Assembly (NCBI GenBank): GCA_927797885.1
Contig: OV696605.1
Location: 1,959,157-2,023,156, forward strand
Direction: 5' to 3'
Source of the DNA: Gloeomargaritales cyanobacterium VI4D9
GTDB taxonomy: Bacteria; Cyanobacteriota; Cyanobacteriia; Gloeomargaritales; Gloeomargaritaceae
Length of the DNA: 64,000 bases
Every line of letters starts with the position of its first letter. The stretch's first letter is position 1. Of the stretch, positions 7,845-63,499 are shown one piece after another. The notes below the pieces were generated by a model, which worked only from the letters and a program-made list of their open reading frames with translations, ran no database searches and was not told the DNA's origin. The position numbers and the translations under genes were made by a program.

Positions 7845-7933
7845 TATTTATGTATCCTCACCAAGGGATTAAAACCATCATGTATAGTAATTTTATTTGA
7901 TCAATGCACAAAAATTGCGACTCCTATTCAATT

Positions 7934-8058
7934 CTATAGCAATCCTAAATGAGAATCGAACAGGGGGTCGCAGGGGCACCGCCCCCGTCTTTGGTTCTGA
8001 AAAATTTTTGTATGCCTACGGTACGCAAGCTAATGCAAATCAAGTAGGATTGCTATAG
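7934..8058. repeat. Family-A short inverted-repeat element, copy A1
   Basis: Ends CTATAGCAATCC and GGATTGCTATAG are perfect inverted repeats 125 bp apart. The interior carries a G/C palindrome, GGGGCACCGCCCC, and the segment TTTTTGTATGCCTACGG. Other copies are at 23918, 50902, 52285, 56561 and 63376. It has no coding capacity and looks like a miniature inverted-repeat element (MITE). Confidence 0.85.
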
Positions 8059-8080
8059 TTATGAGTGCTATAGAATCATC

Positions 8081-8920: not shown

Positions 8921-10333
8921 ATGAAATTATTTAAGAATATCTCCCGCAAAAGTACGGAAAAAGACATCGAACAAAAGCTCGTTATTCCCCTGTTAAAATC
9001 TTGGGGTTATCAGGAATCCGATTGGCAACGGGAAGTATGGCTGGGTCGCAAACGAGCCGATTTCATCCTATGTTTACCAAACCAGACCCCATTCCAAATT
9101 CCCTATCTGGTGATTGAAGTTAAAGCGCCTCGATGTCAGATCAACAATCAAATTTGGCAATTACATGATTATTTACGCCACAGCCAAGCCTTGTTTGGTT
9201 TACTCACCAACGGTTTAGAATTTCAAGTATTTTATCAAAATCATCAAGACATCATCTCCCTGTGCCGATACAATCAACAGGAATTTGCCGATAACTTCCA
9301 GCGGTTCCATATCGTTCTCGGTCGTCCCACCAGCATCCGGGTCAGTCAGTATCTCCAAAAAACTCGTATTGCATTTCACCAACAGGTTATGATAAATTTG
9401 TGCAAGTTTTTCCCCGCCAATGCCCTGACTCCTCCTAATCCCATGACATCTAATGCTTCCAGCCCGACAACCCCAACCTCAGCCATTGTGACTACCGTAT
9501 TTAACAACAAAGGTGGGGTAGGTAAAACCACGACTACAATTAATATGGCTGCCGCCCTCAGCCATTTAGGCAAACGGGTTTTACTCATTGATATTGACCC
9601 GCAGGCAAACTTAACGACGGGTTTGGGAATTGACCCGTTATTAGACGTGGAACAACAAGACAAAAAAGACATTACCCACCTGTTGACTGAGAATGGTGTG
9701 AACGTTGCGGATACGATTATTTCTAAGCGTTGGAATAAAATCGTCTTAGATATTGTACCCTCCCACATTCGTTTGAGTGATATGGAAGCTACTTTGATAC
9801 AAGGCATTGATATTGACCGGGTTTTGGCAAAAAAATTGAGCAAAATCCGTGCGAATTATGATTACATTTTTATTGACCCGCCCCCATCCTTTGGCAAAGT
9901 CAATACTATTTCTTTGATGGCTTCAGATAGCGTTTTAATTCCGACCCAATTGGCACCTTATCCAATTCGAGCATTAGAGTATGTCATGAATCGAATTATG
10001 GCTATTCGTGCGGCACGGGATGGACAATTAAACGTTTTAGGTTTGGCGGTCAGTATGTACAATCGTTCCGCTACCAAACAAGCCTACGAAATGCTTCAGG
10101 AAATGAATCGCATCTTAAATCATCATCCCCTGGGTGCGATGGTGCCGGTCTTTCCTGAAAATACTTGGATACCCCAGCGCAACATTGTCGCCAATACCCC
10201 AGGGAAAGGTTATCCTTTGGCTTGGGCAGAGTATGATAGTAACCTAAGTACGAGTGAGAAAGAAGCGGCTCTGGATGCGTTTAATGCCTATTTAGAGTTA
10301 GCAAAGTATGTGATTCAACTGACAACCCCTTAA
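8921..10333 (+). CDS. HSDR_N-like nuclease domain fused to ParA-type ATPase
   Basis: A 470-residue two-domain protein. Residues about 10-120 resemble the type I restriction subunit R N-terminal fold (HSDR_N): TEKDIEQKLVIPLLKSWGY, then KRADFILCL and YLVIEVKAP, a D...ExK arrangement of the PD-(D/E)XK nuclease type with the acidic residues and Lys retained. After a Pro/Ser/Thr linker (about residues 165-185) comes a full ParA/Soj MinD-type ATPase with deviant Walker A NNKGGVGKTTTTINMA, the switch region LIDIDPQANLTTG and Walker B YDYIFIDPPPSFGK. Typical ParA binds DNA nonspecifically and moves cargo. Here an N-terminal nuclease-like domain replaces the usual short N-terminus. The ParB-like gene starts 8 bp downstream. 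The ATG at 8921 (MKLFKNISRKS) is preferred over the in-frame ATG at 8855. Base composition is lower in GC than neighbouring core genes, suggesting transfer. Function as partition module or defence is unproven. Confidence 0.85.
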   Translation: MKLFKNISRKSTEKDIEQKLVIPLLKSWGYQESDWQREVWLGRKRADFILCLPNQTPFQIPYLVIEVKAPRCQINNQIWQLHDYLRHSQALFGLLTNGLEFQVFYQNHQDIISLCRYNQQEFADNFQRFHIVLGRPTSIRVSQYLQKTRIAFHQQVMINLCKFFPANALTPPNPMTSNASSPTTPTSAIVTTVFNNKGGVGKTTTTINMAAALSHLGKRVLLIDIDPQANLTTGLGIDPLLDVEQQDKKDITHLLTENGVNVADTIISKRWNKIVLDIVPSHIRLSDMEATLIQGIDIDRVLAKKLSKIRANYDYIFIDPPPSFGKVNTISLMASDSVLIPTQLAPYPIRALEYVMNRIMAIRAARDGQLNVLGLAVSMYNRSATKQAYEMLQEMNRILNHHPLGAMVPVFPENTWIPQRNIVANTPGKGYPLAWAEYDSNLSTSEKEAALDAFNAYLELAKYVIQLTTP

Positions 10334-10341
10334 GACCACCA

Positions 10342-11085
10342 ATGGAAACTATTATGAATTACTCTGAAGCCGAACGTCAAAAAATTATCGAATACTTGAA
10401 AGTTAAACCCGTTCATCATGGGCAACTGGATATATCGCAGATTTATGTTCCCGAAAAACAAGTGCTTTCACCACCAGATGGATATGTGGAAATCATCAAT
10501 CATTTCCAGGCTAATTTACATCCGATTGTTGTCCGGCGGACGGATCAATATGGGGAAGATCAGGAGTATGAGTTAATCTATGGTGGGGATTGGTATCAAG
10601 CGGCTAAACGAGCAGGTCTCAAAAAAATCTGGGTTTGGGTATTTGACCTCACCAATGAGCAAATTATACAAATTGACCAATTGCTGAATACAACTGCTCA
10701 GCCCCAGCAACATTCATCTGCATCTATCGTTCACTTATCTACCCAAGAAGTACGCATTATGCTTGCAGAAATTATTGATCAAAAATTCAGAATATTCTCC
10801 CAAGAGTTAGATGAAAAGCTCCGGTTTATAGTACATAATCTTGAGAACCAAATCAATAAAATCCTCGACCGTTTACCTCCCCCACCACCGCCCAAGAAAA
10901 ACATCCATGAAGTTACATTAGCAGAGTTAAAACAACATCCTAAACCTGCTATTAAACGAAATGCCTCAGCTATTTTTAATTTCATCCAAAATCATCCTTC
11001 TCTGAGTAATTTAGAGGATTTAACCCAGGTGAAGGGTGTGGGTAAGGAAACCGTGAAATATCTAGCAGAACACTACACGGTTTAA
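10342..11085 (+). CDS. ParB-like protein with coiled coil and C-terminal HhH
   Basis: A protein of about 245 residues. The N-terminal part (residues about 15-110) resembles a ParB/sulfiredoxin-type nuclease domain: DISQIYVP, then HPIVVRRTDQYG, YELIYGGDWYQAAKRAGLKK and IWVWVFDLTNEQI. A charged helical segment (about 135-180) with heptad spacing ends in a PPPPPP linker. The C-terminus holds a helix-hairpin-helix, LTQVKGVGKETVKYLAEH, a non-sequence-specific DNA-binding element. I see no canonical ParB helix-turn-helix. It lies 8 bp behind the HSDR_N-ParA gene and is surely cotranscribed, so it is the likely partner that stimulates the ATPase or tethers it to DNA. A second ATG at 10354 is also possible. 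The 3' end overlaps the convergent vanY-like gene by 4 bp. Confidence 0.75.
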   Translation: METIMNYSEAERQKIIEYLKVKPVHHGQLDISQIYVPEKQVLSPPDGYVEIINHFQANLHPIVVRRTDQYGEDQEYELIYGGDWYQAAKRAGLKKIWVWVFDLTNEQIIQIDQLLNTTAQPQQHSSASIVHLSTQEVRIMLAEIIDQKFRIFSQELDEKLRFIVHNLENQINKILDRLPPPPPPKKNIHEVTLAELKQHPKPAIKRNASAIFNFIQNHPSLSNLEDLTQVKGVGKETVKYLAEHYTV

Positions 11086-13669: not shown

Positions 13670-13703
13670 GCATCATTCTGGGGGGAAGTTCTGGGTAGTG
13701 ATT

Positions 13704-14693
13704 ATGAGCATTCACCCTTTCGCAATTAAAGCCTTGACCTTTGGGCGGGTGCGCTACAAACAACTTCGCAATCTCATTGGTTTACCCATCCATACACCCC
13801 AAATTTCCCTAACTCCTACCTATGTTGGTCAAGCCGCAAGTGACGTGATCAAAGAGCATATTGCCAATGATAAACCGTGTTTGATTGGTCGTATAGGCAC
13901 CGCAGAGTTTTATACTTTTTTACGTTATTTGAGCATAAACCAACCCACCCGGTATCCTTTGCAAAAATCAATTGATTATATCTTAAAACAATCAGAATCA
14001 TTTTGGTGGGATGAGCGGGTCAGAATCTCCATGTCTATTTATGTGGGGTTTTTCCCACCTACTGACGATAATCTCAATCGGTTTTGTAAACAACTTTTAG
14101 AAGATATTAAGCACATAGATATTCTCGGCTCTTGGATTGCTGACGAATACCAAATTATCCATTTACTCAACAATCCAATTATTGTACAATTACCAGATTT
14201 AGAACCCTACTACCATGAGCATCCGTGGTCTGAAGCATTGGCAGGTAAAACCGTTTTAGTTATTCATCCCTTTGCTGAAAGTATTCAACGGCAATATGAG
14301 CGGCGAACATTATTATTCCAAGACCCCAAAGTATTACCTGAATTTAACCTGAAAACCTTAAAAGCGGTGCAATCCATTGCCGGTAATCCCTGTGGTTTTG
14401 ATTCTTGGTTTGATGCATTCGATTGGATGTGTGAGCAGATTAATCGCATAGAATTTGACGTAGCGATTATTGGGGCAGGAGCCTACAGCATACCCCTAGC
14501 GGCACACGTTAAACGTTTGGGCAAAAAGGCGGTATATTTGGGGGGAGCGACGCAAATCTTATTTGGTATTCGGGGGAAGCGGTGGGATGAGATGCCCTTT
14601 TTCCAAAAGCTATACAATGAGCATTGGGTGCGCCCTCTCCCCAGTGAAATCCCTGCCAATCACCAGCGGGTAGAAGGTGGCTGTTATTGGTGA
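13704..14693 (+). CDS. GT-D-like glycosyltransferase family protein, copy 1
   Basis: A 329-residue protein that I assign to the GT-D-fold glycosyltransferase group with moderate confidence. It has an N-terminal GQAASDVIKEHIANDKPCL followed by LIGRIGTAEFYTFLRY, a region where such enzymes carry an R-x-G-x-x-E motif. A C-terminal Rossmann-like half contains FDVAIIGAGAYSIPLAAHVK and GKKAVYLGGATQILFG. Probable role: transfer of a sugar to a surface polysaccharide or lipid in the cytoplasm; the substrate is unknown. It is the first of three tandem relatives. From about residue 145 on it is almost identical to copy 2, while the preceding 70 residues and the N-terminus differ, so gene conversion is likely. 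It starts at ATG 13704 after GTG 13698. Confidence 0.75.
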   Translation: MSIHPFAIKALTFGRVRYKQLRNLIGLPIHTPQISLTPTYVGQAASDVIKEHIANDKPCLIGRIGTAEFYTFLRYLSINQPTRYPLQKSIDYILKQSESFWWDERVRISMSIYVGFFPPTDDNLNRFCKQLLEDIKHIDILGSWIADEYQIIHLLNNPIIVQLPDLEPYYHEHPWSEALAGKTVLVIHPFAESIQRQYERRTLLFQDPKVLPEFNLKTLKAVQSIAGNPCGFDSWFDAFDWMCEQINRIEFDVAIIGAGAYSIPLAAHVKRLGKKAVYLGGATQILFGIRGKRWDEMPFFQKLYNEHWVRPLPSEIPANHQRVEGGCYW

Positions 14694-14721: not shown

Positions 14722-15759
14722 ATGAACCCAAAAATGATTGAATTTTTAGAGTGGGCAAGGTATCAATACCGTTCTTGTAATGGTAAACTCCACCGATTAA
14801 AAAAACGACTAGGGATTGTCACGAATGACTCAAATAAACCTAGTGAATCTCAAACAAGCAATACATCGCTAAATTTGACTCCAAACTACACTGGTCAAGC
14901 CGCAAGTGACGTGATCAAAGAGCATATTGCTAATGATAAACCGTGTTTGATTGGTCGCATGGGTACTTCAGAGCTTTATCCAGTTTTGCGTTATTTATCT
15001 ATAAGGGAACGAAGACAATATCCCTTGCAAAAGTCTATAAATTATATTCTCGGACGGTCTGAGCCGTTTTGGTGGGATGATAAAGTTATTTCTGATTTGG
15101 TTTTCAATGCAGGTTTTTTCCCGAAAGACTATCTTATAGTTAGCCGCTTTTGTGAGCGACTTTTAGAAGACATTAAATTAATTGATATTTTGGGTTCTTG
15201 GATTGCTGACGAATACCAAATTATCCATTTACTCAACAATCCAATTATTGTGCAATTACCAGATTTAGAACCCTACTACCATGAGCATCCGTGGTCTGAA
15301 GCATTGGCAGGTAAAACCGTTTTAGTTATTCATCCCTTTGCTGAAAGTATTCAACGGCAATATGAGCGGCGAACATTATTATTCCAAGACCCCAAAGTTT
15401 TACCCGAATTTACGTTGAAAACCTTAAAAGCGGTGCAATCCATTGCCGGTAATCCCTGTGGTTTTGATTCTTGGTTTGATGCATTCGATTGGATGTGTGA
15501 GCAGATTAATCGTATAGAATTTGATGTAGCGATTATTGGGGCAGGAGCCTACAGCATACCCCTAGCGGCACACGTTAAACGTTTGGGCAAAAAGGCGGTA
15601 TATTTGGGGGGGGCGACGCAAATCTTATTTGGTATTCGGGGGAAGCGGTGGGATGAGATGCCCTTTTTCCAAAAGCTCTACAATGAATATTGGGTTAGAC
15701 CTCTACCTAGTGAAGTCCCAACTGACCACCAACGGGTTGAGGGGGGCTGTTATTGGTGA
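14722..15759 (+). CDS. GT-D-like glycosyltransferase family protein, copy 2
   Basis: A 345-residue paralogue of the preceding gene, 28 bp downstream on the same strand. It adds a 45-residue N-terminal extension, MNPKMIEFLEWARYQYRS, rich in basic residues, which copy 3 shares and copy 1 lacks. It carries the same LIGRMGTSELYPVLRY motif and the same C-terminal half (GAGAYSIPLAAHV, YLGGATQILFGIRG). Identity to copy 1 is nearly complete at DNA level from about 15198 to 15660 and in a short block around 14890-14960, with clear divergence between them. Function is inferred as sugar transfer; acceptor and donor are not visible. Confidence 0.75.
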   Translation: MNPKMIEFLEWARYQYRSCNGKLHRLKKRLGIVTNDSNKPSESQTSNTSLNLTPNYTGQAASDVIKEHIANDKPCLIGRMGTSELYPVLRYLSIRERRQYPLQKSINYILGRSEPFWWDDKVISDLVFNAGFFPKDYLIVSRFCERLLEDIKLIDILGSWIADEYQIIHLLNNPIIVQLPDLEPYYHEHPWSEALAGKTVLVIHPFAESIQRQYERRTLLFQDPKVLPEFTLKTLKAVQSIAGNPCGFDSWFDAFDWMCEQINRIEFDVAIIGAGAYSIPLAAHVKRLGKKAVYLGGATQILFGIRGKRWDEMPFFQKLYNEYWVRPLPSEVPTDHQRVEGGCYW

Positions 15760-15787
15760 CTTTCAAAAAATAAGGGGAAAGCAATTT

Positions 15788-15950
15788 ATGAACCAAAAAA
15801 CGATTGAATTTTTAGAGTGGGCAAGGTATCAATACCGTTCTTGGAATGGTAAGCTCTACCGGTTAAAAAAACGACTAGGGATTGTCACGAATGACTCAAA
15901 TAAACCTAGTGAATCTCAAACAATCAATATACAGTCTATTTGTCAATTAA
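15788..15950 (+). pseudogene. 5' remnant of third GT-D-like copy, cut by IS5 element
   Basis: ATG at 15788 begins MNQKTIEFLEWARYQYRS, nearly identical to copy 2 for about 45 codons (to about 15923). The sequence then diverges into 27 unrelated bases (CAGTCTATTTGTCAATTAA, also seen in altered form near 63699) and hits the IS5 element end at 15951. The frame continues into the IS and stops at 16027. No 3' part of the gene is found beyond the IS. Confidence 0.85.
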
Positions 15951-17193
15951 GGGCACCTCTATTTATTCAAAATATGAGAACGAAACACAAAAACAGCATA
16001 GCATTGCTCAGTACTTTTTTGTACTAAGATGACTGGGTTTTATAGATTGCTGTAGATATGATTGAAAAGAGACTTAGTAGGGGGTCAAAACTCACAGATT
16101 ATCGGCCAGGGACTGCCGCTCCCAAAACGCATAACGGCGGAAATTATAAGCCAAATTTTTCAAACCAATTGCCGCTTCTACTCTGGTTTTACCAATCAGA
16201 CGCATGAATTTACCCCCAAGACACATCACCCACTGACCAAATACGTGTTCCACCTTGGCTCTCACTTTAGATTTGATGCGATTCTTTTCATTTTGCTCTG
16301 CGGTTAGGGGCTGATTTCGGTAGCCTTTTTCATGGATGTGACTGGTAAATCCAATCCTGGCTAACGTCCATTCTAAATCCGTGCTGTGATAGGCACTATC
16401 TCCCCAGATTTCCGACCCATCAATATCCACCAGTTGACTGAATACTTGTGAGTCATGCACGGAGGCATCCGTGACCACATAATGACGCACAAAACCATAT
16501 TTTACATCCACACTGATATGATTTTTATAGCCAAAATAGCTGACACCATTTTTCTTTACCCAACGGGCATCTCTATCCTTTTGCCGTAAAACCTGGGGTT
16601 TTTCCTCCCATTGCTTAGGAATTTTCCCTTCCTTTACTTCTTGATTTTCTTGCCGAGTATTTCGTTGGACTGGCACGGGAATGAGAGTGGCATCCACAAT
16701 CTGACCAACTTCGACAATATATCCTTTTTCTCTCAGGTAATTATCAAAGTGAGCAAATACTTCTTTGACTAGATCGTGCTTGGCGAGATTATCCCGAAAT
16801 AGCCAGACCGTTTTGGCATCAGGGATAGCGTCTTCGATACCCAATCCTAGGAATTCCATGAACGAGATACGGTCATTCACTTGAAACTCGAGTTCATCGT
16901 CACTAAGGGCATACATTTGTTGGAGAATCAACAATTTAAACATCACAATGACGTCGGTGGGTTTTCGACCCGCATTACTCTTTCTTTCCTTGTCATATAT
17001 GGTTTCTAATATGGGTCGGAAATCTTCCCAGTTAATATTTTCATTGAGCCACTTCAGCATGGGCTTTTTCTGATTGAGTTTTTCCCGCCGCTCTTGCTCA
17101 TCCCAAAATCCTTTTTGACCCATTTTCCCTCTCCACGTCGTTAATACTAATTATCTCACAAATCCCTCCCAAAATCAATTAATAGAGGTGCCC
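15951..17193 (-). mobile_element. IS5-family insertion sequence, copy 1 (1,243 bp)
   Basis: Terminal inverted repeats GGGCACCTCTAT and ATAGAGGTGCCC bound a single transposase gene. TTAA flanks both sides (15947-15950 and 17194-17197), a plausible 4-bp YTAR target duplication as in the IS5 subgroup. It has the same length as the element at 47591-48833, in opposite orientation. By eye the termini are identical, and the transposase proteins are identical. Confidence 0.93.
16092..17123 (-). CDS. IS5-family transposase (copy 1)
   Basis: A 343-residue DDE transposase. The N-terminal segment MGQKGFWDEQERREKL and the IS5 N-terminal domain motif LLILQQMYALSDDELEFQV precede the catalytic core. Core motifs are VDATLIPVP (first Asp), WGDSAYHS (second Asp) and VRAKVEHVFGQW (Glu). 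It looks intact and is identical in protein sequence to the gene at 47661-48692, so it is probably active. Confidence 0.95.
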   Translation of the reverse strand: MGQKGFWDEQERREKLNQKKPMLKWLNENINWEDFRPILETIYDKERKSNAGRKPTDVIVMFKLLILQQMYALSDDELEFQVNDRISFMEFLGLGIEDAIPDAKTVWLFRDNLAKHDLVKEVFAHFDNYLREKGYIVEVGQIVDATLIPVPVQRNTRQENQEVKEGKIPKQWEEKPQVLRQKDRDARWVKKNGVSYFGYKNHISVDVKYGFVRHYVVTDASVHDSQVFSQLVDIDGSEIWGDSAYHSTDLEWTLARIGFTSHIHEKGYRNQPLTAEQNEKNRIKSKVRAKVEHVFGQWVMCLGGKFMRLIGKTRVEAAIGLKNLAYNFRRYAFWERQSLADNL

Positions 17194-23149: not shown

Positions 23150-24045
23150 GCGACACTTTCTAGGTATTTGCAATCGCTCTATTCCTTTCCAGGAGAGGGT
23201 TTGTAGGTGAAGGCAAATGTTGCAAACTTGTTTGAAATGACTATAATCTTAGCATTGGGAAAAACTGCTGCCACAACCATGGCTCTACCACACTACGCTA
23301 ATGCGAAAACCACCCCACATATCTACGCTGACTTCCTCTACTTGCTCCCGCACGACCAGCGGTTGCTGCATCAGGGTTTCCATGATCTTTTCCTGCTTGT
23401 GACTAGGAATCATTTCCAGAAGTTTATGCCGGTCAATGTCCGCCACTACCGTTACAAAATTTTTATGCCCTTTACGCTGACTAATCTCATCAATAATCAA
23501 ACGCCTAACCCCTCTCCAGTCCTCGGTTTTTTTTTGAGCATTTTGATGGTTAAATATGCCCTGAACTTGATCAAAACTTAACCCTTCCTCCCGAGCAATT
23601 TGTTCCAGGCTAGAACTCTGAACTTTTTGATAAATATAGGCTTCATAACGGTGGGTGTATCGGCGTTCCCAACCCGCAAAATCAAGCCTCTCTGTAAAAT
23701 AACGTTGGCAGGAAGCACAATAGAATTGACGACGGGAAGGAGATAAACTCGTTTCCCAAAAACGGGTAAATCTCGTATCAAAATAGGACGATTTTGATGA
23801 ATTTGTTGGGTATAGGACAGACACAATTATCCGTCAATAATCTCAATGTCAGATAGACTTCCTGCTCTTGATAAGAACACATTTCCACGGTAACCCCAGG
23901 AATATTCAGCAGAGCATCTATAGCAATCCGATTTGATTAACGAACAGAAATTTCCTAGAACCCAAGACGGGGGCGGTGCCCCTGCGACCCCTATTCCATT
24001 TTCATTTAGGATTGCTATATTTTCATCTAAAACCACAACACTCAT
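23150..24045 (-). pseudogene. ISL3-family transposase, frameshifted and interrupted
   Basis: Read from ATG 24045: MSVVVLDENI, then the family-A repeat at 23918-24020, then DALLNIPGVTVEMCSYQEQE typical of the ISL3 N-terminus. A frameshift leads to QQIHQNRPILIRDLPVFGKR and another to RRQFYCASCQRYFTERLDF (zinc finger). IDEISQRKGHKNFVTVVADI follows with the first catalytic Asp, then VSVDMWGGF, and finally VFPNAKII in another frame. The C-terminal half, including the last catalytic residue, is missing. It cannot encode an active enzyme. Confidence 0.85.
23918..24020. repeat. Family-A short inverted-repeat element, copy A2
   Basis: CTATAGCAATCCG at the left and GGATTGCTATA at the right, 103 bp, with the same G/C core (GGGGGCGGTGCCCC) as other family-A copies. 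It sits inside the ISL3 transposase pseudogene, the only family-A copy here that interrupts a coding sequence, and so demonstrates mobility. Confidence 0.85.
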
Positions 24046-50901: not shown

Positions 50902-51005
50902 CTATAGCAATCCTAAATGAGAATGAAACAAGGGGTCGCAGGGGCGCCGCCCCTGCATTTGGTTCTAAAAAATTTTTGTTTGAAAATCAAGTAGGATTGC
51001 CATAT
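50902..51005. repeat. Family-A short inverted-repeat element, copy A3
   Basis: CTATAGCAATCCTAAATGAG at the left and GTAGGATTGCCATA at the right, 104 bp, with core GGGGCGCCGCCCC. It starts 4 bp after the hisC stop, so its hairpin could also end transcription. Confidence 0.85.
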
Positions 51006-56560: not shown

Positions 56561-56672
56561 CTATAGCCATCCTAAATAAGCATGGAATAACACCGCCCCC
56601 GTATTGGGTTCTGGAAAATTTTTGTATGCCTACGGCACGCAAGCTCATGTAAATCAAGTAGGATTGCGATAG
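56561..56672. repeat. Family-A short inverted-repeat element, copy A4
   Basis: CTATAGCCATCCTAAATAAG and GTAGGATTGCGATAG bound 112 bp. The inner sequence TTTTTGTATGCCTACGGCAC matches A1. The G/C core is shortened. Confidence 0.82.
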
Positions 56673-63375: not shown

Positions 63376-63499
63376 TATAGCAATCCTACTTGATTTACAC
63401 TAGCTTGCGTGCCGTAGGCATACAAGAATTTTCCAGAACCAAATGCGGGGGCAGTGCCCCTGCGACCCCCTGTTTGATTCTCATTGAGGATTGCTATAG
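63376..63499. repeat. Family-A short inverted-repeat element, copy A5
   Basis: TATAGCAATCCTACTTG and GAGGATTGCTATA bound 124 bp, in the opposite orientation to A1 (its interior reads CCGTAGGCATACAAGAA, and its core GGGGGCAGTGCCCC). It starts 13 bp after the TPR gene stop. Confidence 0.85.

Follow-up and report, generated by a model that had tools for sequence, protein, structure and literature searches.

Two adjacent genes in the genome of Gloeomargaritales cyanobacterium VI4D9 constitute a chromosomal two-component DNA-handling system, in which a predicted PD-(D/E)XK nuclease domain fused to a Soj-type ParA ATPase (gene A) is followed by a ParB-fold adaptor carrying an exchangeable C-terminal module (gene B). 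Both lie in a window of 64,000 nucleotides (contig OV696605.1), to the numbering of which all coordinates refer (Table 1). We regard the anatomy of A and B, and their pairing, as practically certain. The parts are of known kinds; their combination and the swapping of the B tail appear to be undescribed in the literature searched and, to our knowledge, ParA ATPases are known as movers or positioners of cargo and not as carriers of nucleases. We tentatively propose that a nucleoid-surfing nuclease-ParA, targeted by cassette-tailed ParB-fold adaptors, destroys foreign or aberrant DNA in cyanobacteria. If true, this fusion and its cassette-swapping partner would tie DNA cutting to the machinery of partition.

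Table 1. Features of the A–B locus, in window coordinates (residues of B refer to the 243-aa form)
Feature	Position	Strand	Basis
Gene A, nuclease-ParA fusion, 470 aa	8921..10333	+	ORF; Pfam HSDR_N_2 and AAA_31; AlphaFold pLDDT 84.7
PD-(D/E)XK (HSDR_N) domain of A, residues ~13–135	8957..9325	+	Pfam; conserved residues; model secondary structure
Helix and low-confidence linker of A between nuclease and ParA, residues ~136–188	9326..9484	+	AlphaFold model
ParA/Soj ATPase domain of A, residues 189–470	9485..10330	+	Pfam; orthologue alignment; Soj fold match
Gene B, ParB-fold adaptor, 247 aa as annotated	10342..11085	+	ORF; homologue alignments
ParB/Srx-fold N-domain of B, residues 21–117	10414..10704	+	Pfam; alignment; AlphaFold; fold match
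Long helix/coiled coil of B, residues 130–173	10741..10872	+	AlphaFold model
ComEA-like HhH C-terminal module of B, residues 181–243	10894..11082	+	NCBIfam; model; fold match

A preliminary description of this DNA had proposed that the first gene joins an HSDR_N-type domain to an intact ParA, and profile and structure comparisons agree with it. Residues 15–106 of A match HSDR_N_2 (E = 1.7e-9, 38.2 bits against a Pfam cut-off of 25) and residues 191–370 match AAA_31 (E = 4.8e-49). AlphaFold models, computed from alignments of 34 (A) and 35 (B) homologues, have mean pLDDT values of 84.7 and 87.3, respectively, falling below 50 in the linker of A at residues 167–185. The ParA part superimposes on Soj with Z ~34–35 and 1.7–2.0 Å over ~254 residues. 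Its Walker A reads NNKGGVGKTTTT and is of the deviant type that marks the ParA of ParABS systems (NNKGGVGKTT here), and the signature lysine K197 and K202 are invariant. As modelled, the ParA domain of A is a complete Soj-type ATPase.

The nuclease domain displays, in the AlphaFold model, the succession H13–27, E35–41, E44–50, E63–67, H74–88 and E92–96, that is, the alpha-beta-beta-beta-alpha-beta order of the PD-(D/E)XK core as far as predicted secondary structure goes, with D47 on the second strand, E66 ending the third and Q80 on the helix that follows. E13, D47, E66 and K68 supply the acidic-acidic-xK set of the superfamily, next to the HSDR_N_2 match above cut-off. The predicted nuclease fold thus rests on the profile, the residues and the order of secondary structures; a sequence search of solved structures with this domain gave BpuSI as the best, weak match (E 0.047) and no confident PDB relative. 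E13, D47, E66, K68 and Q80 are invariant in all 34 clade-1 orthologues, and the first four of them in all 26 proteins of a set comprising both clades (see below) and the plasmid-borne L. boryana form, the position of Q80 being Q, R or K across the 26 proteins of both clades. The acidic and lysine residues are therefore kept in every homologue. Comparison of the VI4D9 genome with its sister G003 gives omega values of 0.125 for the nuclease, 0.055 for ParA, 0.076 for the B N-domain and 0.68 for the B C-terminal module, and on these sequence comparisons purifying selection acts on the first three. A probably carries an active nuclease. The other option raised at the outset, a nuclease fold used only to bind DNA, is weakened by this strict conservation, since a binding-only fold would be expected to lose some of the catalytic residues.

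Gene B had been described as a ParB-like N-domain, a coiled coil and a helix-hairpin-helix (HhH), placed 8 bp after A. The domain plan stands, with ParB_N at residues 58–112 (Pfam, E = 4.4e-7), the ComEA HhH repeat at residues 187–239 (NCBIfam, E = 6.9e-5) and the AlphaFold model in agreement. By fold comparison of the model, the N-domain matches PadC, Noc and ParB (Z ~10) and the C-domain matches ComEA (Z 7.6, 33% identity); the polyproline linker is restricted to close relatives of the window. The 8-bp gap holds for the annotated start (10342), but the homologues begin at the second Met, so that the true start is probably 10354, giving a protein of 243 aa and a gap of 20 bp.

B differs from canonical ParB in its DNA-reading and nucleotide-binding parts. 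Pfam detects no helix-turn-helix (HTH) family in B, and in the model a single long helix connects the ParB fold to the C-terminal module. The GxxR of Box II is replaced by G-G-D-W in the B of the window, mostly by G-[A/G/E]-[D/E]-W in clade 1 and mostly by G-x-x-E in clade 2, and Arg is absent from this position in the aligned B sequences of both clades. Streptomyces ParB no longer binds CTP when its corresponding GERR motif is altered (PMC12207404). In the VI4D9 genome no protein passes the TIGR00180 cut-off for ParB; B is the only match and the only ParB_N-like protein found. A search of this genome for the canonical parS site, which leaves room for a different one, found none with up to 2 mismatches, and the locus contains no inverted repeat of at least 10 nt with arms within 400 bp. 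B as modelled is thus a ParB-fold adaptor devoid of the parS-reading HTH, not a canonical ParB, and the pair offers a genetically testable case for the function of ParB-fold proteins that have neither HTH nor GxxR.

A scan for the B N-domain in 84,980 bacterial and archaeal species returned 39 loci, all cyanobacterial. A lies directly upstream of B in 38 of them, the 39th starting at a contig end, and of 37 pairs measured, 36 have a gap between −32 and +71 bp, with a median of 4 bp. A separate route gives the same picture: among 96 relatives, clade-1 A is present in 24 genomes, 23 of which also have B; the exception (G069) has its A at a contig end, and no B occurs without clade-1 A. Co-occurrence of the two genes, named earlier as a check, is thus nearly complete, and the sequences indicate that A and B are inherited together. 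Searching with the nuclease domain, we found this subfamily in 49 of 145 cyanobacterial genomes, about one third, always in single copy and nearly always within a frame of 450–620 aa. Presence is patchy at short range: of six relatives in the same genus, four lack the pair, which is therefore dispensable. Likely decaying copies were noticed at the loci L121, L120 and L103: Thermosynechococcaceae YX3bin19 has both genes in fragments, Scytolyngbya has a shortened A, and in Cyanosarcina the frame lacks the nuclease part.

Some of the 49 genomes carry members of a second clade, which is distant (~30% identical) and built alike, the HSDR_N-ParA gene preceding that of a ParB_N/coiled-coil/HhH-type partner. 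In this clade the nuclease does not seem indispensable to the ParA–B core, because one genome (G030) encodes a nuclease-less ParA with a clade-2 B (L168, 3003–4592) and another (G088) an extra unfused ParA (L169). G030 additionally encodes both clade-1 genes, the fused A lying 1 Mb from B. G125 has a B of clade-1 type with a Rho_N tail (L170, 5078–6166), placed directly behind a clade-2 A–B pair and with no adjoining clade-1 A. Several lineages also show a separate MinD/ParA-like gene (294–405 aa, NMKGGVGKTT) on the opposite strand upstream of A (L096, L098, L113, L114, L124, L125, L171 and L173), next to A genes of clade 1 and clade 2 alike.

Three classes of B tail can be separated: Rho_N/SAP-like, HhH and a so far unnamed ‘LTW…GFG’ module. 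Tail class changes 10 times over the 33 tips of the A tree, fewer than the mean of 13.6 obtained with shuffled labels, which suggests some inheritance yet much switching. The exchange is clearest at the DNA level in two Nostoc strains, CCCryo 231-06 and NMS2: identity is 87–100% across the upstream region, A and the B N-domain, the B tails are unalignable (HhH_3 versus Rho_N-like), and identity is back at about 85–95% in the gene after B. The two A proteins are 96% identical despite the differing tails, thus A need not change when the B tail does. HhH_3 and the same third module also occur as B tails in the second clade. Taken from these comparisons, the C-terminal module appears as the fast-evolving, interchangeable part of B, and we think it somewhat probable that the tail selects the target DNA. 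Since HhH, SAP and Rho_N modules usually bind without sequence specificity, tail swapping may be neutral rather than re-targeting.

ATP-bound ParA proteins dimerise on nonspecific DNA, and adaptors trigger hydrolysis. On the reading preferred here, A with ATP would form a sandwich dimer on DNA in the manner of ParA, bringing two nuclease domains together. B, dimeric through its predicted coiled coil, would contact ParA by its N-terminal part, and its tail (HhH, Rho_N or third module) would pick a DNA or DNA structure, at which B would trigger ATP turnover and the nuclease would nick or cut. Module swapping in the tail would then alter the target. The purpose would be to survey or restrict DNA that is foreign or aberrant; this role, which we rank first while holding it at somewhat less than even confidence, is suggested by the resemblance of a swapped tail and a constant catalytic core to the split between specificity and motor/nuclease in restriction systems. 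The positioning ATPase with a nuclease for DNA surveillance considered in the preliminary description accordingly remains the best fit and the leading reading, still unproven. If A–B restricts incoming DNA, it may bear on the poor transformability of many cyanobacteria.

The pair shares parts with several known systems. As in chromosomal ParABS (Soj-Spo0J/ParB), a Soj-type ParA (Z ~34) adjoins a ParB-fold gene; here, however, ParA bears a nuclease, B has variable tails in place of HTH and GxxR, and no canonical parS is seen. The N-terminal PD-(D/E)XK domain of A, with its conserved residues, recalls HsdR of type I restriction-modification, but A–B has no SF2 helicase and no HsdM/HsdS, and the ParA ATPase replaces the translocase. 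McdAB and other ParA/MinD-adaptor systems likewise combine a ParA-type ATPase with a small dedicated adaptor from the same operon, an arrangement found here in 38 of 39 loci; McdAB is not known to include a nuclease or an adaptor of ParB fold. The C-terminal HhH of B is 33% identical to Geobacillus stearothermophilus ComEA over 61 aligned residues, the module alone being in common, as B is not a membrane DNA receptor. PadC, the best structural match to B, and orphan ParB-CTPase-fold fusions also join a ParB-fold adaptor to lineage-specific domains. In the main text of a survey of the ParB-CTPase fold, only ParB-DUF3850 fusions are named as consistently beside parA, and HhH/Rho_N fusions beside a nuclease-ParA go unmentioned (Kaljevic et al, 2025; PMC12704722); the A–B pair thus seems not to be described in that main text.

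The flanks of A–B are housekeeping genes that differ by lineage and are the same in close relatives; in the window, they are glyoxalase II and a VanY peptidase. Neither defence islands nor replication genes accompany the pair: the 112 flanking proteins show no enrichment of defence genes, with few PADLOC matches, mostly generic (helicases, ParA-like, TnpB-like), the flanks contain no linked replication genes, and no methylase or HsdM/HsdS recurs beside A–B among the families listed for these 112 proteins. A defence system, also envisaged initially, is possible, but the loci lie outside defence islands. B was not found in viral contigs, where the nuclease domain of A gave a single weak HSDR_N match, without ParA. 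Among the best 5,000 of 72,556 plasmid records, none matches A over 80% of its length, and coverage of both domains is limited to the distant form on L. boryana pLBA. The nuclease domain alone retrieves no clade-1 relative from plasmids, only two distant HsdR_N proteins, one of which adjoins BREX genes.

These data bear on a plasmid-derived partition unit, one of the initial proposals, or an addiction pair in which A is a toxic nuclease and B its restraint, stranded in chromosomes. The distant fused relative on pLBA, the typical occurrence of ParA and ParB genes on plasmids and the close gene overlap, as is typical for TA pairs, would fit such an origin. We nevertheless consider it very unlikely, as no clade-1 pair occurs in plasmids (best 5,000 of 72,556 records), phages or viral contigs, no replication genes are linked, B has no HTH, the flanks are varied housekeeping genes, purifying selection is strong and G030 retains both genes though 1 Mb apart. 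A nucleoid positioning or segregation system, McdAB-like or a divergent ParAB, in which the PD-(D/E)XK domain adds DNA affinity or cuts rarely, would account for a fully Soj-like ParA domain, a B N-domain closest to PadC, Noc and ParB, the single copy per genome, a largely clade-wise inheritance and B as the only ParB_N-like protein found in its genome. The nuclease-less ParA–B pair of G030 also favours it and is the main complication for the surveillance or restriction reading. Such a system is unlikely in our view, given catalytic residues that never decay, the lack of HTH and GxxR in B, the lack of a canonical parS within 2 mismatches in the VI4D9 genome and the dispensability of the pair, missing in four of six same-genus relatives.

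Similarly doubtful is a DNA repair or recombination nuclease, in which the B tail would sense branched, nicked or single-stranded DNA and ParA would bring the nuclease to sites over the nucleoid or set it free there. The pair is patchily distributed inside a single genus, and fast change and swapping of the recognition tail are unusual for a factor with an unchanging substrate, although such HhH modules are found in ComEA, Tex, RuvA, ligase and XPF-like proteins and the loci are chromosomal, single-copy and in housekeeping surroundings. Repair and segregation are possible but less favoured roles, with surveillance or restriction as the preferred one.

Base composition had been described as unlike that of the neighbours, and it is, with a GC content of 43% for A and 39% for B against 47–58% for most window neighbours, though an equally AT-rich composition is seen elsewhere in the window in an IS and a glycosyltransferase-like pair. 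The probable import proposed from this and from the core-gene surroundings is not demonstrated. Between VI4D9 and the sister genome, dS is 0.21 for A and 0.23 for the neighbouring glyoxalase II, hence no sign of recent transfer, and the Nostocales A proteins form one supported clade on the A tree. On these sequence data a recent import is not supported; the low GC is compatible with an older transfer. We found no clean empty insertion site in the genus, which is too rearranged, glyoxalase II and VanY jointly flanking the pair only in VI4D9.

Two further repeated elements were observed in the window. A MITE-like repeat of ~125–130 bp, with 14-bp terminal inverted repeats (CTATAGCAATCCTA...TAGGATTGCTATAG), occurs at 7930–8062, 63376–63499, 56591–56672, 50902–51004 and 23944–24019, and has over 40 matches each in the VI4D9 genome and in several same-genus genomes. 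Downstream of B, two tandem genes (13698–14693 and 14722–15759; 331 and 345 aa) are 86% identical over 297 residues and probably represent a recent tandem duplication; they are followed by a third fragment (15629–16027) and a transposase-like ORF (16092–17123).
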